A DNA stretch of 64,000 nt from positions 62,001 to 126,000 of the forward strand of contig NZ_FZNP01000010.1 in the NCBI RefSeq assembly GCF_900188105.1, in the 5' to 3' direction. Below are positions 3,483 to 20,428 of this stretch, in pieces. Source of the DNA: Actinomadura mexicana (GTDB lineage: Bacteria > Actinomycetota > Actinomycetes > Streptosporangiales > Streptosporangiaceae). Position numbers and translations under genes: made by a program. Below the pieces are notes generated by a model, which was not told the DNA's origin, did no database searches, and saw nothing but the letters and a program-made list of their open reading frames with translations. Numbering within the stretch: position 1 is the first letter of the stretch; each line of letters opens with the position of its first letter.

Positions 3483-3532
3483 CGTCAACCATAGGTTGAC
3501 GATCCTCGATCGTCAACCTCAAGTTGACGATC
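3483..3532. promoter_or_regulatory. Operator array: four alternating GTTGAC/GTCAAC half-sites
   Basis: CGTCAACC-ATA-GGTTGACG (3483-3501) is a perfect palindrome. GATCGTCAAC-N5-GTTGACGATC (3508-3532) is a second perfect palindrome with 10-bp arms. The inner half-sites also pair with each other around CTC (3495-3517). The array fills the gap between the OleD-like stop codon and the Clp-N/HTH start. Regulator identity is inferred from position. Confidence 0.7.
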
Positions 3533-4457
3533 ACCAGGCGGCGGCCCCGGCGAAGGACGTCGGGGCGGGGTCGTAGCCGAGGGACTCCCTCGCGGCGGTG
3601 GTGTCGAGGGTGCGTTCCAGGGCGAGATGGCTGATCGCGTAGCGGGTGAGGCGCGGCGGTTCGGGACGGCGGGCCAGCAGGAACGCACCCTCGGCCACGG
3701 CGGCGAGCGGGCGGGCGGCACGGGCGGGGACGTACACCGGCCGCGCCCGGACCCCGCGCTCGCGCAGGATCGCGCGGAACGCGTCGTCGATCGCGACCGG
3801 TGCGGCGTCCGCGACGTTGAAGACGCCGGAGGACACGGGGCCCGTCGCGGCCAGGACGCAGGCCTGGACGAGGTTCCCGACCGACGTCAGGCTGACGCGC
3901 TGGCGGCCCGTCCCGACGGCGGGCAGGACGGGGCCCCGCACGGCCGACAGGACGCGCGGCAGGAGCGTGGTGTCCCCGGGCCCGTAGACCGCGTGGGGGC
4001 GCAGGATGATCGCGCCGGCGCCGGCGGCGGCCCGTTCGGCGGCGGCCTTCGAGGCGCCGTAGGCGTTCAGGTAGCGGCGCACCGGGGCCTCGTCCTCGCG
4101 CGCCATGACGCTCGGCGCGAACGGGTCGTACACGCTGGCCGTGCTGACGTGCACGAACCGGGCTCCCGGGAAGCTCGCCAGGGCGTTGCGGGTCCCGGTG
4201 AGGTTGGCGGCGAAGAGGGCGGCGGCGGGTCCCCAGTCGGTGACGCCGCCCGCGCAGTGGACGACCGCGTCCACGGCGGGGACGTCCGGGAGCGGGCCCC
4301 GCGTCAGATCCCAGGACCGGTAGGGCGCGCCGCCCGCATGGCCGGGGGCCACCGCCGGGCGGCGGCCGAACGCGAGCACGGAGGTCCCCTCGGACGCGAG
4401 CGCGCGGCACACCGCGCCGCCGACGAAACCCGAGGCCCCCGTCACCGCGATCCTCAT
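3531..4457 (-). CDS. NAD-dependent epimerase/dehydratase (OleD-like 3-oxoacyl reductase)
   Basis: A 308-aa extended SDR. It has the N-terminal Rossmann motif GASGFVGGAV, an STASVYD catalytic Ser segment, and YGASK as the Tyr-Lys pair. The order of motifs (VTDWG, LRPHAVYGPGD, LLPRVL, LTRYAISHL, ESLGYDP) resembles OleD, the reductase of 2-alkyl-3-ketoacids in olefin/beta-lactone lipid pathways. The start ATG (4457) overlaps the ligase stop (ATGA), so it is translationally coupled as the last gene of the P450-ligase-reductase run. OleD assignment rests on motif order and context; another sugar or steroid SDR is possible. Confidence 0.65.
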   Translation of the reverse strand: MRIAVTGASGFVGGAVCRALASEGTSVLAFGRRPAVAPGHAGGAPYRSWDLTRGPLPDVPAVDAVVHCAGGVTDWGPAAALFAANLTGTRNALASFPGARFVHVSTASVYDPFAPSVMAREDEAPVRRYLNAYGASKAAAERAAAGAGAIILRPHAVYGPGDTTLLPRVLSAVRGPVLPAVGTGRQRVSLTSVGNLVQACVLAATGPVSSGVFNVADAAPVAIDDAFRAILRERGVRARPVYVPARAARPLAAVAEGAFLLARRPEPPRLTRYAISHLALERTLDTTAARESLGYDPAPTSFAGAAAW

Positions 4458-5983
4458 GGCGTCACCGTTCCGCGGTCCCCATGGGTCACCAGCTCGCGGA
4501 GCCGGTCCCGGTCGAGCTTGCGGGTGCGCCCGGAGCGGGGCAGCTCGTCCAGGACGACGATGCGGTCCGGGAGGGCGTCGTGGTCGATGACGTCCGGGAG
4601 GGCGCGGCGCAGCCGGTCGGGCAGGTCGCCGGGGCCGACCACCGCCAGGACGACCTCCTCGTCCCCGGTCCGCGGGTCCGGCACCCCCACGATGGCGGCC
4701 TCGGCCACGCCGGGCAGCGCGGCGATCGACGGTTCGTACAGGCCGGGGTAGAGGTTGAACTTGCCGCGGATCAGCATGTCCTTCTTGCGTCCCGTCAGGA
4801 CGAGGCGGCCGCCGTCCAGGCGCGCGAGGTCGCCGGTCGGCAGCTCGGCGACGGGGTCCGCGCCGAGGTAGCCGCGGCAGAGGTTGGGGCCGGACAGCAG
4901 CAGCTCCCCGTCGCCGTCCAGGCGGGCGCCGACGCCGGGCAGCGGCGCGCCGAGCAGGTCGCCGGGCCCGGCGTGCGCGAGCTTCTCCCTCGCCGAGGCG
5001 ATCGCCACCGGAAGGATCTCCGTCATCGCGTACACCGACAGGACCTCCGCGCGGGGGGCGGCCTCGACCGCCCGCCGCAGCACGGCCGCGGGCGCGGGCG
5101 CCGCGCCGAGCAGCACGTACCGGACGGACGGCGGCAGCTCGCGGCACGCGTCCAGGATCTCGGCCAGGTGGACCGGTACGCAGAACGTGTGCGTGGCCCG
5201 CCGCTCGCGCATCAGCCGTGCGAAGTCGGCCGGGGCGCAGAGCAGCGGCGGCATCGACCAGCGGGCGCCCGCGATCAGCGTCGGCAGGCCGAGCATGAGC
5301 TGGTCGGTGTGGACGACGTCCCCCGGCCCGAGCGGCAGCCGGGACCGGAACAGGTCGAGCGCCGCCGCCAGCGACGCCTGCGTGTGGACGACCGCACGGG
5401 GGTCCGCCGTCGTCCCCGACGTGAAGATCACGGCGGCGGGCGCGTCCGGATCGGCCTCCCGGTCGGGCTCGGGGGCCTCGCCCCGGGCCAGGCGCGCGAA
5501 GGACAGCGCGCCCCGGGGCACGCCCGGCAGCCGGCGGCCGACGTGGACGTGCCGCATCCGGCCTTCGCCCGGGATCCGCAGGTCGGCGAGGTTCGGCAGG
5601 AGCAGCCCGCGCCGCCGCGCGTACGCCCGGACGGGCCGGAGCCTGCTCCCCGCGTACAGCACCGACTCGGCCGCCGACCAGCGGGGCCGAGCCAGCCGCA
5701 GCCGCGCGGTGAACATCTCCGGCCCGGCCCCCGGGTCGGCGAACACGACCACTCCCCCGGCCGCGACCACGCCCAGCGCGAGGACGAGCGACTCCGGCGA
5801 GGGGCGCACCGAGAACAGCACGCCGTCGCCCGGGGCGAGCCCGCCGGACAGCAGCCCGTGCCGGACGGCGAGCACCTGCCGCCGCAGGTCGCCGTAGGTC
5901 AGCTCCGTCCCGTCCCCGGAGATCAGGGCGACGGCGGCGGGCGTTCGCGCCGCCTGGTCGAGCAGCCGCCGGACGAGCGTCAT
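4454..5983 (-). CDS. AMP-dependent synthetase/ligase (OleC-like)
   Basis: A 509-aa ANL-superfamily enzyme. The P-loop reads TSGTTADPRAVVHT (residues 188-201), departing from the usual TSG[ST]TGxPKG because the glycine and lysine are replaced. YAMTEILPVAIAS corresponds to the YGxTE motif and resembles the TExLPVA form of OleC, the beta-lactone synthetase. A GDLARLDGGRLVLTGRKKDM hinge and a C-terminal PRSGRTRK lysine region are present. It adenylates a carboxylate or 3-hydroxyacid. It overlaps its neighbours at both ends (ATGA at 5980-5983 and 4454-4457), forming a coupled cassette with the P450 and OleD-like reductase. An ordinary acyl-CoA or acyl-AMP ligase cannot be excluded. Confidence 0.7.
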   Translation of the reverse strand: MTLVRRLLDQAARTPAAVALISGDGTELTYGDLRRQVLAVRHGLLSGGLAPGDGVLFSVRPSPESLVLALGVVAAGGVVVFADPGAGPEMFTARLRLARPRWSAAESVLYAGSRLRPVRAYARRRGLLLPNLADLRIPGEGRMRHVHVGRRLPGVPRGALSFARLARGEAPEPDREADPDAPAAVIFTSGTTADPRAVVHTQASLAAALDLFRSRLPLGPGDVVHTDQLMLGLPTLIAGARWSMPPLLCAPADFARLMRERRATHTFCVPVHLAEILDACRELPPSVRYVLLGAAPAPAAVLRRAVEAAPRAEVLSVYAMTEILPVAIASAREKLAHAGPGDLLGAPLPGVGARLDGDGELLLSGPNLCRGYLGADPVAELPTGDLARLDGGRLVLTGRKKDMLIRGKFNLYPGLYEPSIAALPGVAEAAIVGVPDPRTGDEEVVLAVVGPGDLPDRLRRALPDVIDHDALPDRIVVLDELPRSGRTRKLDRDRLRELVTHGDRGTVTP

Positions 5984-7149
5984 GCCGCCCTCCCTTCCGG
6001 GGATCGTGCGGACCGGACGACCAGCCGGCGGTACGTCGGGATCAGCACGTTCCGGGCGGCGGCGCGGCGCGTGACCGTGAGCGGCGCGGCGGCGAGCAGC
6101 GTCCGGGCGACCAGGCGGATCTGCGCCACCGCCAGCGGGTACCCGATGCAGAAGTGGGGCCCGGCGCCGAACCACAGGCGGCGCAGCTCGGGCGGGTGCG
6201 GGCGGTCCAGGTCGAACGGGCCGTGGGCGCGGCAGCAGTTGTGCGTGGCGATCAGCACCCGGTCGCCGGGGCGGATCGCCGCGCCCCCGACCACGGCCGG
6301 GCGGTGCACGCTGCGCAGCATGACCGGCGTCGGCGTCGCGACCCGCATCGCCTCCTCGACGGCCCGGTCGAGGAGCGCCGGGTCCCCCGCGACGCGGCCG
6401 AGCTGCCCGTGGTCGGCGAGCAGGGCGATCAGGCGCGGCAGCAGCGTGGCGACGGTCTCGGTGCCGGTCAGGAAGAACGCGCCGGCGGCGCCGCGCGCCT
6501 CCTCCCGCGACAGGCCGAGGGCCCGCATCCGTCCCATGACCGTGGACTCGTCCCCCGCCAGGTAGGACTTCGCCGCGATGTCGCCGAGCGGGTCGAGCAC
6601 GGCGCGGGCGCGCCGGACCTGGGACGGGGAGAGCCGCCGCGTGCGCAGCGACACCATCGAGACGATCCTCTCGCCCCGCTCGAACAGGTCCCGGTAGGCG
6701 TCCTCGGTGCCGCCTTCGAGCCCGATGACCTCGCCGATCACGGCCCCGGCCATGACCCGCGCCGCGTCCACCAGGTCGACGGCCGCGCCGCGTCCGAGCC
6801 GGTCCGACAGCGCGGCCAGCGGCTCGGCCAGCACGCGGGCGCACAGCGCCTCGGTGTAGGACGGGGCGAACAGGTCGGTCAGGCGGCGGCGGAGGGCGCG
6901 GTGGGCGTCGCCCTCCATGTTGAGCAGCACGGACGGCCCGAGCACGGGCGTCCACAGCTCGCCGGGCGAGCCGGGGCCGTCCTTGCGGAAGGTCTCGCCG
7001 TCCATGAGGATCCCGCGGGCCAGGGCGGCGTCGTTCACGACCACCCCCACCCCGGGCACGCGCACGATCGGCCCGCGCCGCGCGACGCCGCGCAGGAGCG
7101 GGTAGGCGAGCGGGTGCGCGGTCAGGTAGAGCCGCTTCTCCCAGTTCAT
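5980..7149 (-). CDS. Cytochrome P450, cluster member 1
   Basis: A 389-aa P450. The heme-binding loop is FGAGPHFCIGYPLA near the C-terminus, the K-helix ExxR is EEAMR, and the I-helix reads TGTETV in place of the common AGxET. There is no membrane anchor, as in soluble bacterial class I enzymes. It is related to the divergent P450 at 9149-10333: both are short, begin similarly, and end in a VL(I/V)P(T/S)Y segment. It precedes the ligase with an ATGA overlap and follows the GT2 gene by 16 bp. It probably oxidises the lipid made by the adjacent KASIII/ligase/reductase set; the substrate is unknown. Confidence 0.85.
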   Translation of the reverse strand: MNWEKRLYLTAHPLAYPLLRGVARRGPIVRVPGVGVVVNDAALARGILMDGETFRKDGPGSPGELWTPVLGPSVLLNMEGDAHRALRRRLTDLFAPSYTEALCARVLAEPLAALSDRLGRGAAVDLVDAARVMAGAVIGEVIGLEGGTEDAYRDLFERGERIVSMVSLRTRRLSPSQVRRARAVLDPLGDIAAKSYLAGDESTVMGRMRALGLSREEARGAAGAFFLTGTETVATLLPRLIALLADHGQLGRVAGDPALLDRAVEEAMRVATPTPVMLRSVHRPAVVGGAAIRPGDRVLIATHNCCRAHGPFDLDRPHPPELRRLWFGAGPHFCIGYPLAVAQIRLVARTLLAAAPLTVTRRAAARNVLIPTYRRLVVRSARSPEGRAA

Positions 7150-7165
7150 CGGGTGTCCCGCGCTT

Positions 7166-7954
7166 TCATCGGATGTCCACGACGTCGGGCCGGTAGCGGT
7201 GGTCGGCGTACCAGCCGAGCGTCCTGACCAGGCCGAACGCGCGGAGCCTGCGCACGGACCCGTACACGGCGACGTCCTTGCGCAGCCCGTAGGCGTCGGT
7301 CACGTAGCGGACGCGGTTGACCAGCGCGCGGTCCTCGTGGACGTCCTCGATGCGGGTGCGGGGGAAGCCGCCCGCCCGCTCGTACAGGTCGGCGGTGATC
7401 GCGAGGTTGCAGCCCGGCATCATCACGTACGGGCCGAGGTAGAAAGGGTCCTGGTTGCCGGGGCGGAACCGCCCGAACAGGGCGGCGAGGTCGATGACGG
7501 CGGGCAGCAGGCGGCGCTCCCAGAACTTCAGGGGGAACTCGTCGGTGCGCGGCAGCAGCGGCCCCGACACCATCTCCAGCCCCTCGCCGAACGCCCGCCT
7601 CACCGCCGCGACCCAGCCGCGATGGGGCAGGCAGTCGGCGTCGGTGCGGGCGACGTGCGTGGCCCCCGCGCTGATCGCGTGCCGGACGCCGGTGTCGGCG
7701 GCGGCGCCCGTCCCCTTCTGCGGCTCGTGGACGATCCGGACGTCGAACGCCGCGGCGCCCGCGGCGAACTCCTTGACGGCGGTGGCGGTCGCGTCCGTGC
7801 TGCCGTTGTCGACCACGACGAGCGTGAAGCCGGTGTCGGTCTGCGCGGCGAGGCGGCGCAGCGTCGCGCCGATCGAGCGCTCCTCGTTGTAGGCGGGAAC
7901 GACGATCCAGAGGTTCATCGGGTCCGCCGGGTCCATCGGGTCCGCCTGGTCCAT
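7166..7954 (-). CDS. Glycosyltransferase family 2
   Basis: A 262-aa GT-A fold enzyme with VVPAYNEERSIG at the N-terminus, DNGSTD, and a metal-binding ARTDADC segment. It has no obvious membrane helices. Three in-frame ATGs (7954, 7936, 7918) fall in a short duplicated stretch encoding MDxADP. The first is chosen because a GGAG lies 8-9 bp upstream, 2 bp after the KASIII stop; the later ATGs have none. A sugar-transfer role on the lipid product is plausible from context. Donor and acceptor are unknown. Confidence 0.8.
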   Translation of the reverse strand: MDQADPMDPADPMNLWIVVPAYNEERSIGATLRRLAAQTDTGFTLVVVDNGSTDATATAVKEFAAGAAAFDVRIVHEPQKGTGAAADTGVRHAISAGATHVARTDADCLPHRGWVAAVRRAFGEGLEMVSGPLLPRTDEFPLKFWERRLLPAVIDLAALFGRFRPGNQDPFYLGPYVMMPGCNLAITADLYERAGGFPRTRIEDVHEDRALVNRVRYVTDAYGLRKDVAVYGSVRRLRAFGLVRTLGWYADHRYRPDVVDIR

Positions 7955-7956
7955 CG

Positions 7957-8958
7957 TCAGAGCTCCGCGAACATGACGCCGAGGCTGACGCCGCCGGCGA
8001 GCCCGATCAGCGCGATCCTGTCGCCGGGCCCGCAGCGCCCCTCGGCGAGCGCGGTGGCGATCTGCAGCGGGAGGCTCGCGGACGCGACGTTGCCGTGGTC
8101 GGGCAGCGTGACGACGAGCCGGTCGGGCGGGACGCCGAGGATCGCGCGCAGCGTCTCCAGGTACGGCAGCGTGACCTGGTGGACGCCGACGACCGCGAAG
8201 TCGTCCCAGGTCAGCCCGGTCTTGGCGAGCGCGGTGGTGAAGATCTCCGGGCCGGTCGCCAGGAAGGCGTCCTTCAGCCGCCGCCCGTCCCCGCTGAAGT
8301 AGGTGAACTCGGGGTCGCGGGGGTGCATCGAGCCGCCGCCCGGGAGCGTCCCGACCCGCCAGGCGCTGGAGACGGCGGCGAAGTCGCGGTAGAAGATCCC
8401 GCCGTCCGGGGCGGCCTCCACGAGCATCGCGGCACCGCCGTCGGAGAGGGTGTAGCCGGCGAACGCGTCCACGAACTGGGCGCGGTCGCGCACGTTCCAG
8501 CGGATCGCGCGGGACGGGCTCTCGCCCGTGCAGACCAGGACGCGCTCGTGCTGCCCGGTGCGGATCAGCGCGTCCGCCATCTGGAGCCCGTTGAGGAAGC
8601 TGTTGCAGGCGTTCTTGACGTCGAAGACCGGGCAGGTCGCGCCGAGCTTGGCGGCGACGATGTGCGCGGTCGCGGGCTCCACGAGGTCCTGCGACGCCGA
8701 CCCGAACACCAGCAGGTCCAGGCCGGCCGGCTCGACCGCGCGGTCGGCGAGGGCGCGGCGGGCCGCGGCGACGGCGAGGTCGGACGCCTGCTCGTCGTCG
8801 CGCATGACGTGCCGGGCGCGGATGCCGGTCATCCGCTCCACGATCGTGGGATGCGGCCGGTACCCGGCGCTCTGCGCCGCGACGCGGGCCTCGACCTCGG
8901 CGCTGCTGACCGTCCGGTCCGGCAGGTGCGCGGCGGCGGCGGTGATGCGGGCTCTCAT
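7957..8958 (-). CDS. KASIII-family thiolase-fold synthase (OleA-like)
   Basis: A 333-aa thiolase-superfamily enzyme with the KASIII Cys-His-Asn triad visible: Cys118 in NACNSF, His260 in GVHQV, Asn290 in DHGN. Glu94 in LVEPATA is placed like the Glu that OleA uses as base for its head-to-head Claisen condensation. Together with an OleC-like ligase and OleD-like reductase downstream, this favours OleA-type condensation of two acyl-CoAs over FabH-type initiation, but a starter-unit KASIII remains possible. It is first gene of the minus-strand cluster and shares a 190-bp divergent promoter region with the second P450. Confidence 0.75.
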   Translation of the reverse strand: MRARITAAAAHLPDRTVSSAEVEARVAAQSAGYRPHPTIVERMTGIRARHVMRDDEQASDLAVAAARRALADRAVEPAGLDLLVFGSASQDLVEPATAHIVAAKLGATCPVFDVKNACNSFLNGLQMADALIRTGQHERVLVCTGESPSRAIRWNVRDRAQFVDAFAGYTLSDGGAAMLVEAAPDGGIFYRDFAAVSSAWRVGTLPGGGSMHPRDPEFTYFSGDGRRLKDAFLATGPEIFTTALAKTGLTWDDFAVVGVHQVTLPYLETLRAILGVPPDRLVVTLPDHGNVASASLPLQIATALAEGRCGPGDRIALIGLAGGVSLGVMFAEL

Positions 8959-9087
8959 GGGCTCGGGTCCCCCGGTTCCTCGTGCTCGGTGTCCGGCCAG
9001 CCTCGCCGGCCGCGGGCGCTCCCGGTCAGAGGCACCCTACGCATCCCGGGCCGGGCGTTGTACCCGGTTCGGCATGAGTACTGCCGC

Positions 9088-9106
9088 TTAGCCCGATTTA
9101 GGGCAT
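9088..9106. promoter_or_regulatory. Weak inverted repeat GCCC-gattta-GGGC in divergent KASIII/P450 region
   Basis: A short inverted repeat sits about 45-60 bp upstream of the P450 start, in an AT-richer stretch of the 190-bp region between the two divergent transcription units. It could serve either promoter. The arms are only 4 bp, so support is limited. Confidence 0.25.
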
Positions 9107-9148
9107 ACCACCTTTCCGTCCGGAGTCCCGGACCGCCAGAATCGGCGG

Positions 9149-10333
9149 GTGACCAGCATGAAGACCGAACGAGCGGCGCGGCACGAGGCCCGGCTGCTGT
9201 GGACGGCGAACCCCGGCCTGTTCGCCCTCCTGGAGGCGGCGCGCCACACCGGCCCCATCGCCCGCGTGCCGAGGCTCGGGTGGGTGGTGACCGACCCCGT
9301 CCTCGCGCGGCAGGTCCTCAACGACCACGCCGCCTTCGGCATGAACGGCGAGGGCGGCGTCGGCCACCTCTGGACGCAGCTGTTCGGGGACGAGATGGGG
9401 CGGTTCTTCGACGGGGCGACGCATACCGAGGTCCGCACCCGCGCCCGGGACCTCTTCACCGAGGACGCAGCGCAGACGTTGGTGGAGCGTTCCCAGGGAC
9501 GGACCCACGCCGCGCTCGCCGCCCGCCTCGCCGCCGGGGCGGGCATCGACGTCGCCGACGCGGCCCGCGTCCTGGCCGGACGCATGGTCGCCGACCTGCT
9601 CGGCCTGCCCGCGGACCGGGCCGACACCGCCTACCGCGCGCTCTTCGCCGCCGGGGAGCGGCTCGCCCGGCTGGCGCTCGGCACGACCGCGTCCACCGGT
9701 CTCGACCCGGCGGTCGTCGCGCGGGCCCGCGCCGTCGTGGACGAGATCACCGCCGGCGTCCCGCACGCCTACCGGACGGCCGGGCCGGACACCCTCCTCG
9801 GCCGCTGCCGGGAGATGGGCCTCGGCCTGCCGCTCGCCCGCGGCCTGGCGACCCTGCTGGTGATCGCCGGGACGGAGACCGGGGCGTCCGGGACCGTCCG
9901 CACCGCGGCCCTGCTGCACGACACCGGAGGGCAGCGGGCGCTGCTGGACGACCCGTCCCTCATGGGCAACGCGGTGCGCGAGGGGCTGCGCGTCGCCGCC
10001 CCGGCGCCGGTGATCGGGCGGCACGTCTCCCGGGACGCGGCGGTCGGCGGGCGGCGGCTCCGCGCCGGCGACCGGGTCCTGCTGCTGACCTACCGGGCGA
10101 CGGGCGCCACCGGGCCGTTCGACGTCCGCCGCGCGTACGTGCCCGAGACCCGGCAGCTGTGGTTCGGCGGCGGGCGCCACCTGTGCCTCGGCGCCGCCGT
10201 CGCGCGCGTCCAGGTGGCCCGGATGCTGGAGACGCTGCTGTCCTCCGGCCGCCCGTACCGGGTCGTCTCCCGCCGCCCGGCCCGCCGCGTCCTCGTCCCG
10301 TCGTACGCCGAACTGCGCGTGCGGCCCGCCTAG
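9149..10333 (+). CDS. Cytochrome P450, cluster member 2 (divergent paralogue)
   Basis: A 394-aa P450 with heme loop FGGGRHLCLGAAVA, K-helix REGLR, and I-helix AGTETGAS. It is paralogous to the P450 at 5980-7149, sharing overall length, the N-terminal GPIxRVP segment and a C-terminal VLVPSY segment. The start is GTG 9149; an in-frame ATG at 9158 is an alternative. It is transcribed away from the KASIII gene, so the two units probably share control. It may catalyse a second oxidation in the same pathway. No dedicated ferredoxin is adjacent; the nearest is at 20163. Confidence 0.85.
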   Translation: MTSMKTERAARHEARLLWTANPGLFALLEAARHTGPIARVPRLGWVVTDPVLARQVLNDHAAFGMNGEGGVGHLWTQLFGDEMGRFFDGATHTEVRTRARDLFTEDAAQTLVERSQGRTHAALAARLAAGAGIDVADAARVLAGRMVADLLGLPADRADTAYRALFAAGERLARLALGTTASTGLDPAVVARARAVVDEITAGVPHAYRTAGPDTLLGRCREMGLGLPLARGLATLLVIAGTETGASGTVRTAALLHDTGGQRALLDDPSLMGNAVREGLRVAAPAPVIGRHVSRDAAVGGRRLRAGDRVLLLTYRATGATGPFDVRRAYVPETRQLWFGGGRHLCLGAAVARVQVARMLETLLSSGRPYRVVSRRPARRVLVPSYAELRVRPA

Positions 10334-10931: not shown

Positions 10932-12140
<1,209 letters not shown>

Positions 12141-12179
12141 CCGGCGGGCATCCTGGAAGTGCAGGACTCACAGGGCCCC

Positions 12180-12204
12180 GGCCCCGGCCCCAGCGGCCGG
12201 GGCC
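12180..12204. terminator. GC-rich hairpin after thiolase
   Basis: Perfect 10-bp arms (GGCCCCGGCC / GGCCGGGGCC) around a 5-nt loop, 39 bp after the thiolase stop and 33 bp before the MBL start. There is no T-tract, so it may terminate only partly. Confidence 0.6.
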
Positions 12205-12237
12205 TTCGGACCATGACAGGCGCGAAAGGCGGTCTCG

Positions 12238-13227
12238 GTGCAGCCGGAACCTGAGGACCTCGGCGGCGGGCTGTGGAGCGTCCCCGTCCCCATCCCGAAC
12301 AACCCCCTGTCGTACACGCTGGTGTACGCGGTGGAGAGCCCCCGGGGCCCCGTCCTGGTCGACGCGGGCTGGCAGCACGAGGACGCCTGGACTGCTCTGC
12401 GCGACGGGCTCGGCACGTTCGGGATCGACGTCGCCGACGTGTACGGCGTGGTCGTCACCCACTTCCACCCCGACCACGCGGGCCTCGCCGGGCGCGTCCG
12501 CGAGACGTCCGGCGCCTGGATCGCCATGCACCACTCCGACGCCGGGATCGTCCGGCTGTTCCACGAGGTCGGCCAGGGCGGCCGCCGCTCGTTCGAGCTC
12601 ACCGCACTGCGCCGCGCGGGCGCGGCCGAGTCGGACCTGACCGGGCCGACCCAGCAGACCCGGGTCTCGCCGCCCGCCGTCCCGGACCGCGAACTGTCCG
12701 ACGGCGACCTGGTCGACGTCCCCGGCCGCCGGCTCCAGGCCGTCTGGACCCCCGGGCACACGCCCGGCCACATCTGCCTGCACCTGGAGGACGGCGACCG
12801 CATCTTCACCGGCGACCACGTGCTGCCGCGCATCACCCCGCACATCGGCCTCTACCCCTACGACACCCCGGACGTGGACCCGCTCAGCGACTTCCTCGGC
12901 TCGCTCGACAAGGTGTCCGCCATGACCGTGGGCGAGGTCCTGCCCGCCCACCAGCACCGCTTCCGCGGCCTCGGGGACCGCGCCCGCGAGATCATCGCCC
13001 ACCACGAGGAGCGCCTCGCGGAGGTGGCGGCGCTGCTGTCCTCCAGCCCCGTCACGCTGTGGGACCTCACCGCCGGCCTCACCTGGCGGCACCCGTGGGA
13101 CGAGATGGCCCAGCAGGCCCGCCGCATGGCCGCCGCCGAGGCCGCCGCGCACCTGCGCACCCTGGAGACCCGCGGCGCCGCCCGCCGCGTCGGCGCCGAC
13201 GACCCCCTCCGCTACGCCCTGCGCTGA
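12238..13227 (+). CDS. MBL-fold metallo-hydrolase
   Basis: A 329-aa metallo-beta-lactamase-fold hydrolase. Metal ligands are visible: THFHPDHAG (HxHxDH), GHTPGH for the third His and GDHVLP for the bridging Asp, then AHQHRF late in the protein. The C-terminal 80 residues are helical, as in hydrolases that act on CoA or other thioesters. The start is GTG 12238. Its position between a FadA5-like thiolase and CYP125-like genes suggests a thioesterase or lactonase role in steroid breakdown, but no substrate can be read from the sequence. Confidence 0.75.
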   Translation: MQPEPEDLGGGLWSVPVPIPNNPLSYTLVYAVESPRGPVLVDAGWQHEDAWTALRDGLGTFGIDVADVYGVVVTHFHPDHAGLAGRVRETSGAWIAMHHSDAGIVRLFHEVGQGGRRSFELTALRRAGAAESDLTGPTQQTRVSPPAVPDRELSDGDLVDVPGRRLQAVWTPGHTPGHICLHLEDGDRIFTGDHVLPRITPHIGLYPYDTPDVDPLSDFLGSLDKVSAMTVGEVLPAHQHRFRGLGDRAREIIAHHEERLAEVAALLSSSPVTLWDLTAGLTWRHPWDEMAQQARRMAAAEAAAHLRTLETRGAARRVGADDPLRYALR

Positions 13228-13350
13228 CCGTCCCGTCCCGCCGCCCGGAGCCGGCCGGGGGCGTCGGCCTGCCCGCCGACGACCCTCGGGGAGGGCCGCG
13301 ACCTCCCGATCGGGGTGCGACGCAGATCACTCTCACCGGCGGGACTCTTG

Positions 13351-13368
13351 ATGAGACTGGAGTCTCAT
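13351..13368. promoter_or_regulatory. Palindrome TGAGAC-tgga-GTCTCA beside KstR site 2
   Basis: ATGAGACT-GG-AGTCTCAT is a perfect 8-bp inverted repeat. The core TGAGAC-N4-GTCTCA recurs at 20035-20050 before the ferredoxin gene, again next to a KstR-type site. It looks like the operator of a second, unidentified regulator. Confidence 0.55.
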
Positions 13369-13370
13369 GT

Positions 13371-13384
13371 TAGAACCTGTTCTA
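13371..13384. promoter_or_regulatory. KstR-type operator 2 (CYP125-like operon promoter)
   Basis: TAGAAC-CT-GTTCTA is a perfect palindrome and an exact TnnAACnnGTTnnA match. It starts 2 bp after the ATGAGACT palindrome and lies 77-90 bp upstream of the first CYP125-like ATG. Confidence 0.75.
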
Positions 13385-13460
13385 GGTGAGTGCACCAAGC
13401 AAGCGTTCACTGTGGCCTGCTCGCCTCGTGTGGTCTCCACCCCGGCACGAAGGATCTTCC

Positions 13461-14732
13461 ATGGCACTCGCGACGTCCCCGCTCTCCGCCGCCCGGGCCT
13501 TCCGGGCCCCCGAGATCGACATCATCGATCCGGGCGTCTACGAGCGCGGGGGGATCCCGCACCGCCAGTTCCAGTGGCTGCGCGACAACGACCCCGTCCA
13601 CTGGCACCAGGACCCGAACGACGGGGTGCCGGGGTTCTGGGCCATCACGCGCCACGAGGACGTGGTGTCGGTGTCGCGGCGCGCCGACCCGTACTCCTCG
13701 CACGAGCGGACGTCGATGTTCGAGGAGTTCTCCAGCGACGACATCGCCATGTACGGGCAGATGATGCTCTTCCAGGACCCGCCGAGCCACACCCGGCTGC
13801 GCTCCATGGTCAACAAGGGCTTCACCCCGCGGATGATCGGGCGGCTGGAGGAGCACATCCGCAAGATCTGCAACGAGCTGATCGACGAGGCGGCGCCGCT
13901 CGGCGAGTGCGACTTCGTCGAGCGGTTCGCCGCGCCGCTGCCGCTGTACACGATCTGCGAGCTGCTCGGCGCCCCGATGGCGGACCGGGAGAAGATCTTC
14001 CACTGGTCCAACAAGCTCGTCGCGTTCAACGACCCCGAGTTCATCGGGGGACGCGAGGAGTCGACCCTGTGCGCCGCCGAGTTCGCCGAGTGGGGCGGGC
14101 AGCTCGCCGCCGCGCGCGAGTCCACGCCGCGCGACGACATCGTGACCAAGCTGCTGACGCCCGACGCCGACGGCGGCAGGATCAGCCTGGAGGAGTTCCA
14201 GCTCTTCGTGATCATGCTGTCGATCGCCGGGAACGAGACCACCCGGACCGCCACCGCGGGCGGCATGATCGCGTTCTTCGAGCGGCCGGACCAGTGGGCC
14301 CGGCTGCAGGAGGACCGGAGCCTGCTGCCGACGGCGGTCGAGGAGATCGTCCGCTGGGTCAGCCCGATCAACCAGTTCCGCCGGACGGCCCTGGTCGACA
14401 CCGAGATCGGCGGCAAGCAGATCAAGGCCGGCGACAAGGTCGTGATGTTCTACGGCTCCGCGAACCGCGACGAGCGCGCCTTCGACAACCCGTTCGCCTT
14501 CGACGTGGCGCGCGACCCGAACCCGCACATCGGCTTCGGCGGCGGGGGCCCGCACTACTGCCTCGGCACGCACCTCGCCCGCATGAACCTGCGGATCATC
14601 TTCGAGACGATCCTGGATCGCATGCCCGACATCCGGCTCGCCGGGGAGCCGCGCCGGTTGCGGTCCAACTTCGTCAACGGCTACAAGGAGATTCCGGTGC
14701 GTTTCACGCCCTCGGCCCCGCTCGGAGGTTGA
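13461..14732 (+). CDS. Cytochrome P450, CYP125-like (first of tandem pair)
   Basis: A 423-aa P450 with I-helix AGNETTR, K-helix EEIVR and heme loop FGGGGPHYCLGTHLA. The DPP-HTRLR and KGFTPR segments resemble CYP125/CYP124/CYP142, which oxidise the terminal carbon of the sterol side chain. ATG 13461 is chosen for its AAGGAT ribosome site; the in-frame extension to 13386 would overlap the operator region. It is followed after 36 bp by a close paralogue. Electrons probably come from the 3Fe-4S ferredoxin at 20163, which has the same operator type. Exact CYP family needs a sequence comparison. Confidence 0.85.
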   Translation: MALATSPLSAARAFRAPEIDIIDPGVYERGGIPHRQFQWLRDNDPVHWHQDPNDGVPGFWAITRHEDVVSVSRRADPYSSHERTSMFEEFSSDDIAMYGQMMLFQDPPSHTRLRSMVNKGFTPRMIGRLEEHIRKICNELIDEAAPLGECDFVERFAAPLPLYTICELLGAPMADREKIFHWSNKLVAFNDPEFIGGREESTLCAAEFAEWGGQLAAARESTPRDDIVTKLLTPDADGGRISLEEFQLFVIMLSIAGNETTRTATAGGMIAFFERPDQWARLQEDRSLLPTAVEEIVRWVSPINQFRRTALVDTEIGGKQIKAGDKVVMFYGSANRDERAFDNPFAFDVARDPNPHIGFGGGGPHYCLGTHLARMNLRIIFETILDRMPDIRLAGEPRRLRSNFVNGYKEIPVRFTPSAPLGG

Positions 14733-14768
14733 CGGCGCCCATCACTCCGGACGAGGAGGTTCGAGGCG

Positions 14769-16004
14769 ATGACCACCACCCCCGACATCGAACTGGTCGA
14801 CCCGGGGCCGTACGAGCACAGCGGCGTCCCGCACGGGCAGCTGGCATGGCTGCGCGAGCACGAGCCGGTGTTCCGCCACCACGGCGACCCGGAGCTGGAC
14901 CACCCGCCGTTCTGGGCGGTCACCCGGCACGAGGACGTCGTGCACGTCTCGCGGCACCCGGAGATCTTCTCGTCCTGGCAGCGGCTGGCGCTGTTCCACG
15001 AGTCGCCGGAGGACCAGATCGTCCTGCAGCGGATGATGATGCTCAACCAGGACCCGCCGGAGCACTCGCGCAAGCGGAGCATCGTCAACCGGGGCTTCAC
15101 CCCGCGCGCGATCGGCGCGCTGGAGCAGCACATCCGGGACATCTGCCGGCGCCTGGTGACCGAGACCGCCGAGCGCGGGCAGGAGGCCGACTTCGTCCGC
15201 GACCTGGCGGCCCCGCTGCCGCTGTATGTGATCTGCGAGCTGCTCGGCGCCCCGCCCGAGGACCGGGAGAAGATCTTCCACTGGTCGAACACGCTGATCG
15301 GCGGGGACGACCCGGACTTCCAGCGGACGCCGGAGGAGGGCCAGCAGGCGGCGACGGAGCTGTACGCCTACGCCAACGAGCTCGCCGCCGACCGGAGGGA
15401 GAACCCGCGCGAGGACATCGTCACCCGGCTGCTCCAGCCGGACGCCGGCGGCGAGGTGCTGACCGGGGACGAGTTCGAGCTGTTCGTGATGCTGCTGTCG
15501 GTCGCCGGGAACGAGACGACCCGCAACGCGGCGTCCGGCGGCATGCTCGCGCTCCTGGAGCATCCGGAGCAGTGGGAGCGGATGAAGGCCGACCCGTCCC
15601 TTGCCCGGACGGCGGCGGACGAGATCGTCCGCTGGGTCACCCCGGTCAACATGTTCCGGCGCACGGCCGTCCGGGACACCGAGATCGGCGGCCGGGCGAT
15701 CGCCGAGGGCGACAAGGTCGTGGTGTTCTACTCCTCGGCCAACCGCGACGAGGCGGTGTTCTCCGACCCGTACCGCTTCGACGTGGGCCGGGACCCGAAC
15801 CCCCACCTGGGCTTCGGCGGCGGCGGTCCGCACTTCTGCCTGGGCTCCCATCTTGCCCGGCTTGAGCTGAGTGTGCTTTTCGAGACACTCTTGGACACCA
15901 TGCCCAATATTGAACTCAACGGTAACGTTCGCAGGCTAAGGTCTAGTTTCATCAACGGTGTAAAGGAGATGCCGGTACGGGTGTGTCCGGCGTCCCTCGA
16001 CTGA
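14769..16004 (+). CDS. Cytochrome P450, CYP125-like (second of tandem pair)
   Basis: A 411-aa paralogue of the preceding P450: same AGNETTR, DEIVRWV and FGGGGPHFCLGSHLA motifs, same NGxKEMPVR C-terminus. A GAGGAGGTTCGAGG ribosome region precedes its ATG. Tandem duplicates in sterol loci may accept different side-chain lengths or oxidation states. Its last 120 bp (15851-15970) are about 48% GC against more than 70% around them, although the protein stays conserved with its paralogue. This suggests an embedded regulatory element. Confidence 0.85.
   Translation: MTTTPDIELVDPGPYEHSGVPHGQLAWLREHEPVFRHHGDPELDHPPFWAVTRHEDVVHVSRHPEIFSSWQRLALFHESPEDQIVLQRMMMLNQDPPEHSRKRSIVNRGFTPRAIGALEQHIRDICRRLVTETAERGQEADFVRDLAAPLPLYVICELLGAPPEDREKIFHWSNTLIGGDDPDFQRTPEEGQQAATELYAYANELAADRRENPREDIVTRLLQPDAGGEVLTGDEFELFVMLLSVAGNETTRNAASGGMLALLEHPEQWERMKADPSLARTAADEIVRWVTPVNMFRRTAVRDTEIGGRAIAEGDKVVVFYSSANRDEAVFSDPYRFDVGRDPNPHLGFGGGGPHFCLGSHLARLELSVLFETLLDTMPNIELNGNVRRLRSSFINGVKEMPVRVCPASLD
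15851..15970. other. AT-rich, codon-atypical patch at 3' end of second CYP125-like gene
   Basis: By direct count 58 of 120 bases are G or C. Codons rare here, such as ATT, GAA, CTA, AGG, TCT, AGT and GTA, are used where the tandem paralogue uses GC-ending codons for a similar peptide. It could hold an internal promoter for the GT4 operon starting at 16033. TAAGGT at 15937 is a possible -10, but no well-spaced -35 was found. Confidence 0.5.
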
Positions 16005-16032
16005 CGGGAGTGGTGCGTGGGCAGGGGATGGC

Positions 16033-17316
16033 GTGGGTGAGGCAGGCGAGGCCGGCGGTCCGTTGCGGGTGGCCCTGCTCTCGTACCGCAGCAAGCCGCA
16101 CTGCGGCGGCCAGGGCGTCTACCTCCGGCACCTGACCAGGGAGCTGGTCGACCTCGGGCACACCGTGGAGGTCGTCTCCGGCCAGCCGTACCCGGATCTC
16201 GACCGCGAGGAGATCACCCTCACCAAGCTGCCGAGCCTGGACCTGTACCGGGACGACGACCCGTTCCGCACCCCGGCCCTCGGCGAGTTCCGCGACTGGC
16301 TGGACGTCCTGGAGTTCGCGCACATGAAGACCGGCGGCTTTCCCGAGCCGCTGACCTTCAGCCTGCGCGCCCTGCGGCTGCTGCGGGAGCGCCGCCGCGA
16401 CTTCGACGTCGTGCACGACAACCAGGTCCTCGGCGTCGGCAACCTCGGCATCCCCCGGCTGGGGCTGCCGCTGGTGACGAGCATCCACCACCCGATCAGC
16501 GTCGACCGGCGGATCGAGATCGAGGCCGCCCGCGGCCTCAAGCAGAAGCTCGGCAAGCGCCGCTGGTACGGGTTCGTCGGGATGCAGTCGCAGGTCTCGC
16601 GGCGCATCGGGCCGGTGCTGACGGTGTCGGAGTCCTCCAAGGTCGACATCGTCAAGGACTTCAAGGTCGACCCGCGCGACATCGAGATCCTGCCGCTCGG
16701 CGTCGACACCCGGATCTTCCATCCGCGCGGCGAGCGCGTCCCCGGCCGGATCGTGGCGATGGCCAGCGCGGACGCGCCGATCAAGGGCGTGGACGTGCTG
16801 CTGCGCGCGGTCGCCAAGGTCGCCACCGAGCGCGACGTCCACGTGATCGTGGTCAGCCGGCCGCAGAAGGACGGCCCGACCCAGCGGCTCGTGCGCGAGC
16901 TCGCGCTCGGCGAGCGGGTCCGGTTCGTCAGCGGCATCAGCGACGGGGAGCTGGGCGAGCTGCTGGCGTCCGCCGAGACCGCCGTCGTGCCGTCGCGCTA
17001 CGAGGGGTTCTCGCTGCCGGCCGTGGAGCACATGGCGTCCGGGACGCCGCTGGTGGCGAGCCGAGCCGGCGCCCTGCCCGAGGTCGTGGGCGACGCCGGG
17101 ATCCTGGTCGCGCCGGGCGACGTGGAGGAACTGGCCGCGACTCTGCACCGCCTGCACGACTCCGCCGAGGAGCGTGCGCGGGTGGGAGCCGCCGGCCTCG
17201 CGCGCGTCCAGGAGCGGTTCGCCTGGCCCGCCGTGGCGCAGGCCACCGTGGAGCACTACCGGGCCGCCGTCACCCAGCAGAACTACCGGCGCCTGGCCGC
17301 ACGCAAGGGCAAGTGA
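16033..17316 (+). CDS. Glycosyltransferase family 4 (GT-B)
   Basis: A 427-aa retaining GT-B enzyme. It has a glycine-rich N-terminal loop (SKPHCGGQGVYLRHLTREL), a PLGVDTRIFHP hinge, and a C-terminal nucleotide-sugar site with EGFSLPAVEHMASGTPLV (E-x7-E). The start is GTG 16033, 28 bp after the second P450. It is first of a same-strand set with a methyltransferase and an alpha-toroid protein, separated by 42 bp and then overlapping. The set suggests assembly of a methylated glycoconjugate. Any link to steroid metabolism is only by neighbourhood. Confidence 0.8.
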   Translation: MGEAGEAGGPLRVALLSYRSKPHCGGQGVYLRHLTRELVDLGHTVEVVSGQPYPDLDREEITLTKLPSLDLYRDDDPFRTPALGEFRDWLDVLEFAHMKTGGFPEPLTFSLRALRLLRERRRDFDVVHDNQVLGVGNLGIPRLGLPLVTSIHHPISVDRRIEIEAARGLKQKLGKRRWYGFVGMQSQVSRRIGPVLTVSESSKVDIVKDFKVDPRDIEILPLGVDTRIFHPRGERVPGRIVAMASADAPIKGVDVLLRAVAKVATERDVHVIVVSRPQKDGPTQRLVRELALGERVRFVSGISDGELGELLASAETAVVPSRYEGFSLPAVEHMASGTPLVASRAGALPEVVGDAGILVAPGDVEELAATLHRLHDSAEERARVGAAGLARVQERFAWPAVAQATVEHYRAAVTQQNYRRLAARKGK

Positions 17317-17320
17317 GGGA

Positions 17321-17334
17321 GCGTCCGCGGACGC
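17321..17334. other. Small hairpin between GT4 and methyltransferase
   Basis: The 14-bp palindrome GCGTCCGCGGACGC, extended by AGGG/CCCT flanks, starts 4 bp after the GT4 stop and ends just before the methyltransferase ribosome site. It could be a weak attenuator or processing site. Confidence 0.35.
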
Positions 17335-17358
17335 CCTCTGATCGGAAGGAGCACGACC

Positions 17359-18120
17359 CTGCTGACCGTGGATTTCCAGCGGTTCCGCGTCTCCCCTGGA
17401 GACCGCGTCCTCGACATGGGGTGCGGCGCCGGACGGCACGCCTTCGAGCTGTACCGACGGGGTGCGCACGTCGTGGCCTTCGACCAGGACGCCGGGGAGC
17501 TGTCCGGCGTGGACAAGATGTTCGGGGCGATGCGCCTCGAAGGCCAGGTGCCCGAGAACGCGACCGCCGAGACCGTGCGGGGCGACGCGCTGGACCTGCC
17601 GTTCCCGGACGACCACTTCGACGCGATCGTCGCGTCGGAGGTGCTGGAGCACATCCCCGACGACATGCGGGCGATGCGCGAGCTGCTGCGCGTCCTCAGG
17701 CCCGGCGGGAAGCTCGCGGTGACGGTGCCGAGCTGGCTGCCCGAGCGGGTCTGCTGGGCCCTGTCCGAGGACTACCACACCGCCCCCGGCGGGCACGTGC
17801 GGATCTACACCCGCGCCGAGCTCGAGGCCAAGCTGAAGTCGGTCGGCTTCCGGGTCGGCGGCCACCACCACGCGCACGGCCTGCACGCCCCCTACTGGTG
17901 GATCAAGTGCGCGGTGGGGGTGGACAACGACGGCAACCCGCTCGCCAAGGCCTACCACCAGATCCTCGTCTGGGACATCATGAAGCGGCCGCTCGCCACC
18001 CGGCTGGCCGAGCGCGTCATGAACCCGCTGATCGGCAAGAGCGTCGTCGTCTACTTCGCCAAGCCCGCCGCGCCGGACGCGCCGGCGGCCCCGGCCAGGG
18101 AGACGGCGGATGCGGTCTGA
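17359..18120 (+). CDS. Class I SAM-dependent methyltransferase (probable CTG start)
   Basis: A 253-aa methyltransferase: motif I is VLDMGCGAGRH, then FDQDAG for the acidic ribose contact and LPFPDDHFDAIVASEVLEHI for motifs II/III. GTG 17368 would truncate the N-terminus and sit 16 bp from the Shine-Dalgarno GGAAGGAG (17344-17351). CTG 17359 has 7-bp spacing and yields MLTVDF, a typical family start, so CTG is preferred. It overlaps the toroid gene by 11 bp. The substrate is unknown, probably a glycan or lipid made with the adjacent GT4. Confidence 0.75.
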   Translation: MLTVDFQRFRVSPGDRVLDMGCGAGRHAFELYRRGAHVVAFDQDAGELSGVDKMFGAMRLEGQVPENATAETVRGDALDLPFPDDHFDAIVASEVLEHIPDDMRAMRELLRVLRPGGKLAVTVPSWLPERVCWALSEDYHTAPGGHVRIYTRAELEAKLKSVGFRVGGHHHAHGLHAPYWWIKCAVGVDNDGNPLAKAYHQILVWDIMKRPLATRLAERVMNPLIGKSVVVYFAKPAAPDAPAAPARETADAV

Positions 18121-19225
18121 GACCGCCCCGCCCTCGGTTCCCGGAGTCCTGACCGCCGGCGACGTCGCCGCCACGGCACGGAGCATCGCGGCGCAGCAGG
18201 AGGCCTCCGGCGCGATCCCGTGGTTCTCGCCCACGCACGGCGTCCCCGGCCACGTGGACGCCTGGAACCATGTCGAGGCGGCCATGGCGCTGTCGGTCGC
18301 CGGGCTCGGCGCCGAGGCCAGGCGGGCCTACGAGTGGCTGCGCGGCGTCCAGCGCCCGGACGGGTCGTGGCCCGCGAAGTGGGTGCTGGGCGAGGTCACC
18401 GAGCCGGGCGGGGAGTCCAACCACGCCGCCTACGTCGCGGTCGGCGTCTGGCACGAGCTGCTGACGACCGGGGACGAGGACTTCGCCCGGTACATGTGGC
18501 CGGCGGTCCGGCGGGCGATCGACTTCACGCTCGGGCTGCAGACCCGGCGCGGCGAGATCATCTGGATCCGGCACGACAGCGGCGAGGCGTCCGACCACGC
18601 GCTGCTGACCGGCTGCTCGTCGATCTACCAGTCGCTGCGCTGCGCGGTCGCGCTGGCCGAGCGGCTCGGCGAGCACCAGCCGGACTGGGAGCTCGCCGCC
18701 GACCAGCTCGGGCACGTGGTGGCCGCGCATCCTGAGGCGTTCGCCGACAAGAGCCGCTGGTCGATGGACTGGTACTACCCGGTGCTCGGCGGCCCCGTGC
18801 GGGGTGCGGACGCGGCGCGCCGCTTCGACGAGGCATGGGACACCTTCGTGGTGCCCGGCCTCGGCTGCCGCTGCGTCTCGGACCAGCCGTGGGTGACGGC
18901 GGCGGAGAGCTGCGAGCTGGTGCTGGCACTGGACGCCGCGGGCGACCGCGACCGCGCGCTGGAGCTGTTCACCACCATCCAGCACCTCCGGCACGAGGAC
19001 GGCTCGTACTGGACGGGCTGGCAGTTCGAGAACGAGCGGCACTTCCCGGGGGACCGTTCCACCTACACGGCGGCCGCGGTGGTCCTGGCGGCGGACGCGC
19101 TGGCGGACGCCTCCCCCGGCTCCCGGCTCTTCAAGGAGATCGCGGGACGGCCGCTCGGGCCGTCCGAGGCGTCCGACCCGCTGGCGTGCGGTTGCGCGCT
19201 CGTGGCGGCCGCCAACCGCGCCTGA
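18110..19225 (+). CDS. Prenyltransferase/squalene-cyclase-like alpha-toroid protein
   Basis: A 371-aa all-alpha protein with (alpha/alpha)6-barrel repeats: RPDGSWPAKW and HEDGSYWTGW match the DGSW turns of terpene cyclase and prenyltransferase-type toroids. The DxDD motif of squalene-hopene cyclases is not seen, so cyclase activity is not claimed. A catalytic or carbohydrate-active role (glycoside-hydrolase-like toroid) is possible. It is translationally coupled to the methyltransferase through an 11-bp overlap and ends in a strong bidirectional terminator. Confidence 0.6.
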   Translation: MRSETAPPSVPGVLTAGDVAATARSIAAQQEASGAIPWFSPTHGVPGHVDAWNHVEAAMALSVAGLGAEARRAYEWLRGVQRPDGSWPAKWVLGEVTEPGGESNHAAYVAVGVWHELLTTGDEDFARYMWPAVRRAIDFTLGLQTRRGEIIWIRHDSGEASDHALLTGCSSIYQSLRCAVALAERLGEHQPDWELAADQLGHVVAAHPEAFADKSRWSMDWYYPVLGGPVRGADAARRFDEAWDTFVVPGLGCRCVSDQPWVTAAESCELVLALDAAGDRDRALELFTTIQHLRHEDGSYWTGWQFENERHFPGDRSTYTAAAVVLAADALADASPGSRLFKEIAGRPLGPSEASDPLACGCALVAAANRA

Positions 19226-19248
19226 CCGGGCTCCCCCGGTCAGGCGCG
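19217..19248. terminator. Bidirectional terminator hairpin between convergent genes
   Basis: Perfect 14-bp arms (CGCGCCTGACCGGG / CCCGGTCAGGCGCG) around a CTCC loop. It contains the toroid gene stop codon and lies 19 bp from the end of the convergent methyltransferase gene. Confidence 0.75.
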
Positions 19249-19267
19249 CCCGCGCAGGCCGGGCGGG

Positions 19268-20050
<783 letters not shown>

Positions 20051-20073
20051 CGCGGAGTCTTGCCGAGCCAGAC

Positions 20074-20087
20074 TGGAACGTGTTCTA
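20074..20087. promoter_or_regulatory. KstR-type operator 3 (ferredoxin-ADH promoter)
   Basis: T-GG-AAC-GT-GTT-CT-A is an exact TnnAACnnGTTnnA match, 76-89 bp upstream of the ferredoxin ATG. It links electron supply to the P450 operon that carries operator 2. Confidence 0.75.
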
Positions 20088-20162
20088 CTTTCGGGGTGAG
20101 CCACCCGTTTCCGAACGATATTCGGTAGGTTGACGGGTGAGTCCCCCGAACGGAGCAGAGCG

Positions 20163-20354
20163 ATGAGAGTACGAGTCGACCCTCTGGTGTGCGAGGCGAA
20201 CGCCGTGTGCGTCGGGCTCGCACCCGAGGTCTTCGACCTCACCGACGACGACGAGCTGCAGGTCCTGCGGCCGGCCGTCCCGCCCGAGGAGCAGGACCGC
20301 GTCCGCCACGCGGTGCGGTCGTGCCCGAAGGCCGCGCTCGCGCTGGAGGAGTAG
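20163..20354 (+). CDS. 3Fe-4S ferredoxin for P450s
   Basis: A 63-aa ferredoxin with three cluster cysteines in the P450-redox-partner arrangement: CEANAVC, then APEVF, and a final SCPKAAL. Three cysteines rather than four indicate a 3Fe-4S cluster. It carries electrons to cytochromes P450, most probably the CYP125-like pair, since both transcription units have KstR-type operators. ATG 20163 has a GGAG upstream. The Zn alcohol dehydrogenase follows by 74 bp. Confidence 0.9.
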   Translation: MRVRVDPLVCEANAVCVGLAPEVFDLTDDDELQVLRPAVPPEEQDRVRHAVRSCPKAALALEE

Positions 20355-20428
20355 CCGGAGGGCTGCCCCCGGTCCCCGTTCACCACCCCAGACCCCCCGG
20401 CAACACCTCAGGCACAGTGGAGGCAGCC

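Follow-up and report, generated by a model that had tools for sequence, protein, structure and literature searches.

The closest described counterpart of the locus reported here is a gene cluster of Actinoplanes atraurantiacus, which encodes OleA, a glycosyltransferase, OleC, a cytochrome P450 and OleD, with no OleB in the genome (Smith et al. 2020, PMC7064751). The available passages of that paper draw a hydroxylated, glycosylated beta-lactone as the proposed product, the function being inferred from protein domains. They also report that Glu117 of OleA is essential, that the Glu117-Pro pair occurs in all but two of the OleA proteins studied, that actinobacterial OleA proteins form two clades, one with weak activity in one member only, and that the A. 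atraurantiacus OleA hydrolysed p-nitrophenyl hexanoate. Here we describe a six-gene cassette in a stretch of 64,000 nucleotides of Actinomadura mexicana (the window; contig NZ_FZNP01000010.1, positions 62,001 to 126,000). The cassette encodes a 3-ketoacyl-acyl carrier protein synthase III (KASIII, or KAS), a family 2 glycosyltransferase (GT2), two P450s (a and b), a class I adenylate-forming (ANL) ligase and a short-chain dehydrogenase/reductase (SDR). As far as the available passages go, the two clusters are of one type, with the same five gene kinds, no OleB, the same product idea and a similar identity to Xanthomonas campestris OleA (29% for the A. atraurantiacus OleA, 28% for the window KAS). 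Therefore, the architecture is already in print and its discovery is not new. Compared by gene kinds in the text of the paper, however, the A. atraurantiacus cluster lists the ligase before the P450, as do the Streptomyces-type loci L055-L061 of our survey, whereas in the window the P450 precedes the ligase, and the window has a second, divergent P450. The distribution of the cassette, the second P450, its fused and split forms, the placement of the ligase outside OleC and the exchange for an F390-synthetase-like enzyme are not in the available passages of PMC7064751.

Like canonical OleABCD systems, the cassette has the catalytic Glu and Cys-His-Asn triad of OleA, an OleD-related SDR and an adenylate-forming enzyme. 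Unlike them, it has no detectable OleB, its KAS, ligase and SDR lie outside the canonical clades, and GT2 and P450s are added. Loci L184-L187, which we take to be beta-lactone clusters of the nocardiolactone (Nlt)/lipstatin (Lst) type and label by likeness only, resemble the window in that KAS, ligase and SDR are present and no OleB was found. They contain two KAS genes, of which the second lacks the Cys-His-Asn triad, and OleC-clade ligases, whereas the window has a single cassette KAS gene with a full triad and no such heterodimeric pair.

The cassette probably couples two fatty acids head to head; the product would then be reduced, activated, oxidised and glycosylated. KASIII, GT2, P450 a, the ligase and the SDR follow each other in this order on the minus strand, and P450 b is divergent on the plus strand (Table 1). 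P450 a and the ligase overlap by ATGA at 5980-5983, as do the ligase and the SDR at 4454-4457, and the coordinates leave gaps of 2 nucleotides between KAS and GT2 and of 16 between GT2 and P450 a. The best explanation is that the six genes are a lipid pathway operon with a divergent P450. The overlaps, the closeness of KASIII and GT2 upstream and the tie of GT2 to the pathway had all been noted in an initial annotation made from the letters alone, and each was borne out.

The cassette is conserved in many actinobacteria, as the gene-order comparison suggested by the initial annotation revealed. Among 394 class-level genomes searched with the ligase, 21 had a strong relative (E 1e-60 or better); leaving aside the own genome, this gave 20 loci (class loci). 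KAS, GT2 and ligase were each found in all 20, P450 in 18 and SDR in 14; in one of these (L051) the KAS matches are just 28-30% identical, and the P450s of L055-L061 match weakly. A second set (named loci) consisted of the best 80 of 508 relatives of one KAS alignment query and is not a random sample; one genome occurs in both sets (L052 and L086). Among the 71 named loci with enough flank for gene counts, P450 a was present in 71, the SDR (within the counted stretch) in 63 and P450 b in 30, while GT2 and ligase were both present in 60 and both missing in 11. The named loci came from Microbacteriaceae, Promicromonospora, Cellulosimicrobium, Lentzea, Saccharothrix, Saccharopolyspora, Actinomadura and others, and Streptomyces dominated the best 120 matches when the KAS of L056 was used as a protein query. 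The cassette is thus present in Actinomadura, Streptomyces, Microbacteriaceae, Cellulosimicrobium, Lentzea and other actinobacteria, with a conserved order KAS-GT2-P450-ligase-SDR and, frequently, a second P450. The window ligase shares 97% identity with proteins assigned by name to A. luteofluorescens and A. verrucosospora.

Rearranged loci bear on which genes belong together. In two Thermomonospora genomes (loci L043 and L044; P0242, P0243 and P0246), a GT2-ligase fusion gene lies beside KAS, and the SDR (75% identity), P450 a (79-81%) and a divergent second P450 (40%) are grouped elsewhere in each genome; two of the four P450 matches at these split loci hold one in-frame stop. That the parts are retained although the cassette is split argues that P450 b belongs to it. 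At L051 (9138-14713), cassette GT2 and ligase accompany an NltA/NltB-type KAS pair instead of the cassette KAS, suggesting that ligase and GT2 follow an OleA-type condensation. Neither a cassette-type nor an OleD-type SDR was found in this stretch. The hybrid locus also has a P450b-like gene.

The window KASIII has a Cys118, His260 and Asn290 triad in an Asn-Ala-Cys context, Asn116, and a Glu94-Pro95 pair. Glu94 is the counterpart of OleA Glu117 and aligns with Glu in the OleA reference and with Phe in the FabH reference. Glu94, Asn116, Cys118, His260 and Asn290 were invariant in the window and in all 19 KAS of loci found via the ligase, and Glu94-Pro95, Asn116, Cys118, His260, Gln261, Val262 and Asn290 were identical in 100 of 100 cassette KAS. 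However, 80 of these 100 are from the named loci, which were retrieved with a pattern containing Glu-Pro (80/80 match it, and 69 also fit a second pattern, around the Cys). Because this pattern included Glu94, the 80 are not evidence for that residue, and the independent evidence comes from the window and the 19 ligase-found loci only. Glu94 and Asn116 also occur in 8/8 OleA, in 4/4 KAS of loci L175-L178 and in 10/10 Nlt/Lst-type KAS, and in none of 13 FabH rows; Pro95 is uninformative, being present in all 13 FabH rows as well. Against the FabH model the window KASIII scored 141.5 bits (cut-off 292.1), and the other four KASIII of the genome scored 265-338.

KAS trees had well supported clades for FabH (100/99), canonical OleA (100/100), NltA-type and NltB-type proteins. 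Cassette KAS lay outside the FabH clade and outside the canonical (X. campestris/Micrococcales-type) OleA clade. An approximately unbiased (AU) test did not reject joining cassette KAS with OleA (p = 0.116), and the order among the KAS clades is unsettled. The OleA-like residues pointed out in the initial annotation are therefore confirmed, while in the trees the separation from FabH held and membership of canonical OleA did not. The KAS of L175-L178 nest inside the cassette KAS clade (100/97 in one tree, 100/99 in another), and these loci also carry OleC-clade ligases, OleD (336-367 bits) and OleB. Of the contextual evidence, this speaks most clearly for an OleA role. We propose that the KASIII is OleA-type and would catalyse an acyl-CoA:acyl-CoA Claisen condensation. 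The first KAS tree included a badly placed own-genome row (OWN_L005, end branch 5.89). For the final tree, thinning took out OWN_L004 and OWN_L005 along with ten cassette and eight FabH rows. Further FabH rows were dropped as short (three) or out of frame (six), and four FabH loci were not long enough to be read.

With a query from L180, no OleB was found in the 20 class loci, the 80 named loci or the window, and the same query, itself counted, recovered OleB in 12 of 20 loci picked by OleD. In the A. mexicana genome (97.5% complete), the best OleB match reached 49.9 bits with partial query coverage. A control panel of twelve genomes comprised seven ole-positive ones, the source of the query among them, each with one match of at least 100 bits; the other five gave none. 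The failure to find an OleB of this pathway, which the initial annotation had called absent, therefore extends from the locus to the genome, and suggests that no decarboxylation to an olefin takes place. An Agrococcus genome (G375) carries the cassette and, at a different site, a complete ole locus; the two systems can thus coexist. A nearby alpha/beta hydrolase gene (1839-2705) encodes GFGVGG, in which Gly indeed replaces the nucleophile Ser, as had been noticed. It matched a macrolide esterase family best (246 bits, cut-off 420). We considered it as a dead OleB and rejected this; it looks unrelated to the unit, because no match to it is listed near the 20 related cassettes.

The OleD model is the top NCBIfam match of the SDR (118 bits, against a curated cut-off of 580), and in a genome-wide comparison with OleD the SDR came first with 117 bits, followed by a match of 68, in agreement with the OleD-like label first given to it. 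We propose that it is OleD-related and a candidate beta-keto reductase. GT2 has a DxD motif (TDADC or TDSDC) in 87 of 88 aligned rows, the remaining row being gapped, and in most relatives the gene starts about 10 codons later, suggesting that the true start is there. Its predicted GT-A fold (pLDDT 83.6) matched PcManGT best in the PDB (E 4e-14), with WrtF also near, and its membership of the unit is supported. The two P450s of the window are paralogs (41% identical), as first described, with catalytic motifs intact. P450 a has the heme Cys in 97/97 rows, a nearly invariant ExxR and TGTET in 89/97; P450 b has heme Cys and ExxR in 43/43 rows and AGTET in 42/43. Their top NCBIfam match is a family of P450-derived activators (67 and 71 bits, cut-off 343). 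We rejected a role as heme-less glycosyltransferase activators, since neither the heme Cys nor the catalytic motifs have been lost and P450 a is present where GT2 is missing.

The ligase contains YAMTEILPVA, the motif on which it had been called OleC-like; LP after YxMTE is seen in the majority of the OleC rows compared but is missing from some. Membership of the OleC clade did not follow. On the NCBIfam OleC model (OlefBLtnSyn) the ligase scored 78 bits (rank 20), compared with 541 for the L175 ligase, 255 for OleBC of L180 and 74 for the cassette ligase of L053; the cut-off of 900 is not diagnostic, because none of the four reaches it. Its top NCBIfam match, at 153 bits, is a subfamily of long-chain fatty-acid-CoA ligases with a cut-off of 476. 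Cassette ligases formed their own clade outside 21 sampled ANL enzymes of the A. mexicana genome as well as outside OleC. They grouped with three of that genome's acyl-CoA ligases at 95/86 in a smaller tree and at 80/75 in a larger one, from which eleven near-duplicate rows were omitted and badly cut own rows (L007, L008) dropped or replaced. An AU test did not reject grouping with OleC (p = 0.41), leaving the sister group open. The ligase has Asp83, Gly85, Gly341 and an extra Arg486 in common with OleC, and retains Gly407 and Asn410, as is usual among the acyl-CoA ligases of this genome. Its structure model (pLDDT 90.4) matches amide-bond synthetases and a Mycobacterium tuberculosis fatty acyl-CoA synthetase about equally, so that the reaction cannot be read from the fold. 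By phylogeny, the ligase is a lineage of its own and not OleC. Since it lies outside the OleC clade while a grouping with OleC is not rejected, beta-lactone formation by this enzyme is possible.

In loci of Herbiconiux, Agromyces, Psychromicrobium and one more genome, from Microbacteriaceae, the cassette KAS and P450 a are kept as in the window, whereas GT2 and the ANL ligase were not found. An adenylating gene related to F390 synthetase lies nearby in 10 of the 11 full-flank named loci of this kind. The F390 family model (TIGR02304), run on two loci, gave 352 and 374 bits (cut-off 252) for L089:7582-8940 and L102:6341-7681. The GT2/ligase-less loci in the KAS tree (L084, L089, L095, L102, L109 and L119) form one clade (99/96); L084 is not among the 11, and those 11 are not independent events. 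Judged by these F390-like genes, adenylation seems to be needed and its enzyme family exchangeable, with GT2 accompanying the ANL type. Our literature search found no publication linking OleA with F390 synthetase, and among the papers listed by related searches, judged by title and start of abstract, PMC7064751 alone seemed pertinent. Directly upstream of the Psychromicrobium KAS lies a gene for a 761-amino acid ATP-grasp and GNAT protein (L102:7681-9963).

In the pathway that we propose, the OleA-type KASIII would condense two fatty acyl-CoAs to a 2-alkyl-3-keto acid, which the SDR would reduce to a 2-alkyl-3-hydroxy acid. The ligase would adenylate the carboxylate. Attack by the 3-hydroxyl, giving a beta-lactone, would be the simplest outcome, and an open activated or esterified acid the alternative. 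The two P450s may hydroxylate the alkyl chains and GT2 may attach a sugar to one hydroxyl, and without OleB the product would escape decarboxylation to an olefin. Each reaction, their order and the product are what we infer from gene content, conservation, residues, the OleB search and placements, which are observed. We lean, with some reserve, towards a modified 2-alkyl-3-hydroxy-acid lipid in general; a beta-lactone in particular is a tentative reading that we would not favour. Of the product first put forward in the initial annotation, the modified hydroxy-acid lipid is thus kept, and the beta-lactone step is left open.

Several observations weigh against this pathway. The available passages of PMC7064751 report that purified Actinoplanes OleA, of which little protein was available, was inert with every acyl-CoA tested. 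Cassette KAS has just 8 of 52 OleA-specific columns, its window member is 31% identical to one FabH and 28% to X. campestris OleA, and its clade was drawn beside FabH with weak support in three trees (89/81, 84/74, 82/32). OleC-, NltC- and LstC-like ligases share one clade (99/97) that excludes the cassette ligases, which form another (100/100), and the window ligase is a mosaic, having 10 of 26 OleC-specific and 8 of 15 acyl-CoA-ligase-specific columns. The SDR clade (100/99) is separate and lies beside the OleD clade (98/94) and NltD-like proteins in an unsettled order. The SDR is also not universal (14 of the 20 class loci), and no match at E 1e-25 was found in three of eight cassette genomes searched whole (G361, G248 and G375), two of which, G248 and G375, have OleD at a separate ole locus.

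These points feed other readings. The placement of the ligase, its grouping with three own acyl-CoA ligases in the smaller tree, Gly407 and Asn410 and its best NCBIfam match would all suit a loading enzyme, which activates an unusual acid as a CoA thioester or adenylate for the KASIII and closes no beta-lactone ring. The product would then be a reduced, oxidised and glycosylated beta-hydroxy acid or ketone. We regard this as unlikely, though worth keeping in view. The four residues common to OleC speak against it, the AU test cannot place the ligase, and a loading enzyme would not need GT2, yet among the 71 full-flank named loci the ligase occurs only with GT2. The same co-occurrence (60 both, 11 neither), together with the Thermomonospora fusion, as if both parts served one step, would fit an open mycolate-like glycolipid, in which the ligase activates the 2-alkyl-3-hydroxy acid for esterification to a sugar placed by GT2. 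However, the cassette is without an acyltransferase, and the loci lacking ligase and GT2 are not independent, those in the KAS tree forming the single clade described above; we consider this glycolipid improbable.

The position of the cassette KAS beside FabH would agree with an ordinary FabH-type starter that feeds a polyketide or fatty acid pathway. So would its top PDB match: an entry named FabH scored 132.9 bits, above the 116 bits of 3fk5, which we take to be X. campestris OleA. We rejected this candidate as very improbable on its FabH model score, on having 2 of 26 FabH-specific columns and on the absence of Glu94 and Asn116 from all 13 FabH rows; a carrier protein or polyketide synthase is also not among the six genes. 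OleA-type condensation followed by reduction, activation, oxidation and glycosylation is thus the reading that we retain.

Table 1 Features of the cassette in the window of A. mexicana.
Feature	Coordinates	Strand	Basis	Remark
OleA-type KASIII (P0005)	7957..8958	-	catalytic residues, alignment with OleA and FabH	
GT2 glycosyltransferase (P0004)	7166..7954	-	Pfam Glycos_transf_2, 80.6 bits	
Cytochrome P450 a (P0003)	5980..7149	-	heme Cys, ExxR and TGTET motifs	
Class I adenylate-forming (ANL) ligase (P0002)	4454..5983	-	Pfam AMP-binding, 170 bits	
Extended SDR, OleD-related (P0001)	3531..4457	-	OleD model is top NCBIfam match	
Cytochrome P450 b (P0006), divergent	9158..10333	+	41% identity to P450 a	alternative GTG start 9149
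Short spacer between divergent KASIII and P450 b genes	8959..9148	no strand	gene layout	presumably carries promoters of both genes

Beyond P450 b, the plus strand of the window (10980-21517) encodes a steroid 3-ketoacyl-CoA thiolase (PRK07850, 646 bits, cut-off 515), a metallo-beta-lactamase-fold hydrolase, two tandem P450s, a GT4 glycosyltransferase, a methyltransferase, an amylase-like protein and an N,N-dimethyl-4-nitrosoaniline (NDMA)-type alcohol dehydrogenase. The run resembles a gene neighbourhood for the oxidation of sterols or terpenoids. Its genes were set aside as members of the unit by gene order alone, the related loci having been searched for P450 matches only. Several Actinomadura loci also have weak P450 matches next to the cassette.

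The available passages of Smith et al. 2020 give the gene set in one species, and our survey places it in many genera, Streptomyces included. A bolder view, which we hold to be rather doubtful, is that the cassettes make a new, widespread class of actinobacterial oxygenated glycolipids by head-to-head condensation, with carboxyl activation having at least three separate origins (OleC; the cassette ANL ligase, fused to GT2 in Thermomonospora; and the F390-synthetase-like enzyme of Herbiconiux and its relatives). Should the cassettes yield a beta-lactone, ring closure may have more than one evolutionary origin. If they do not, clusters that gene names alone would file as beta-lactone pathways make something else.

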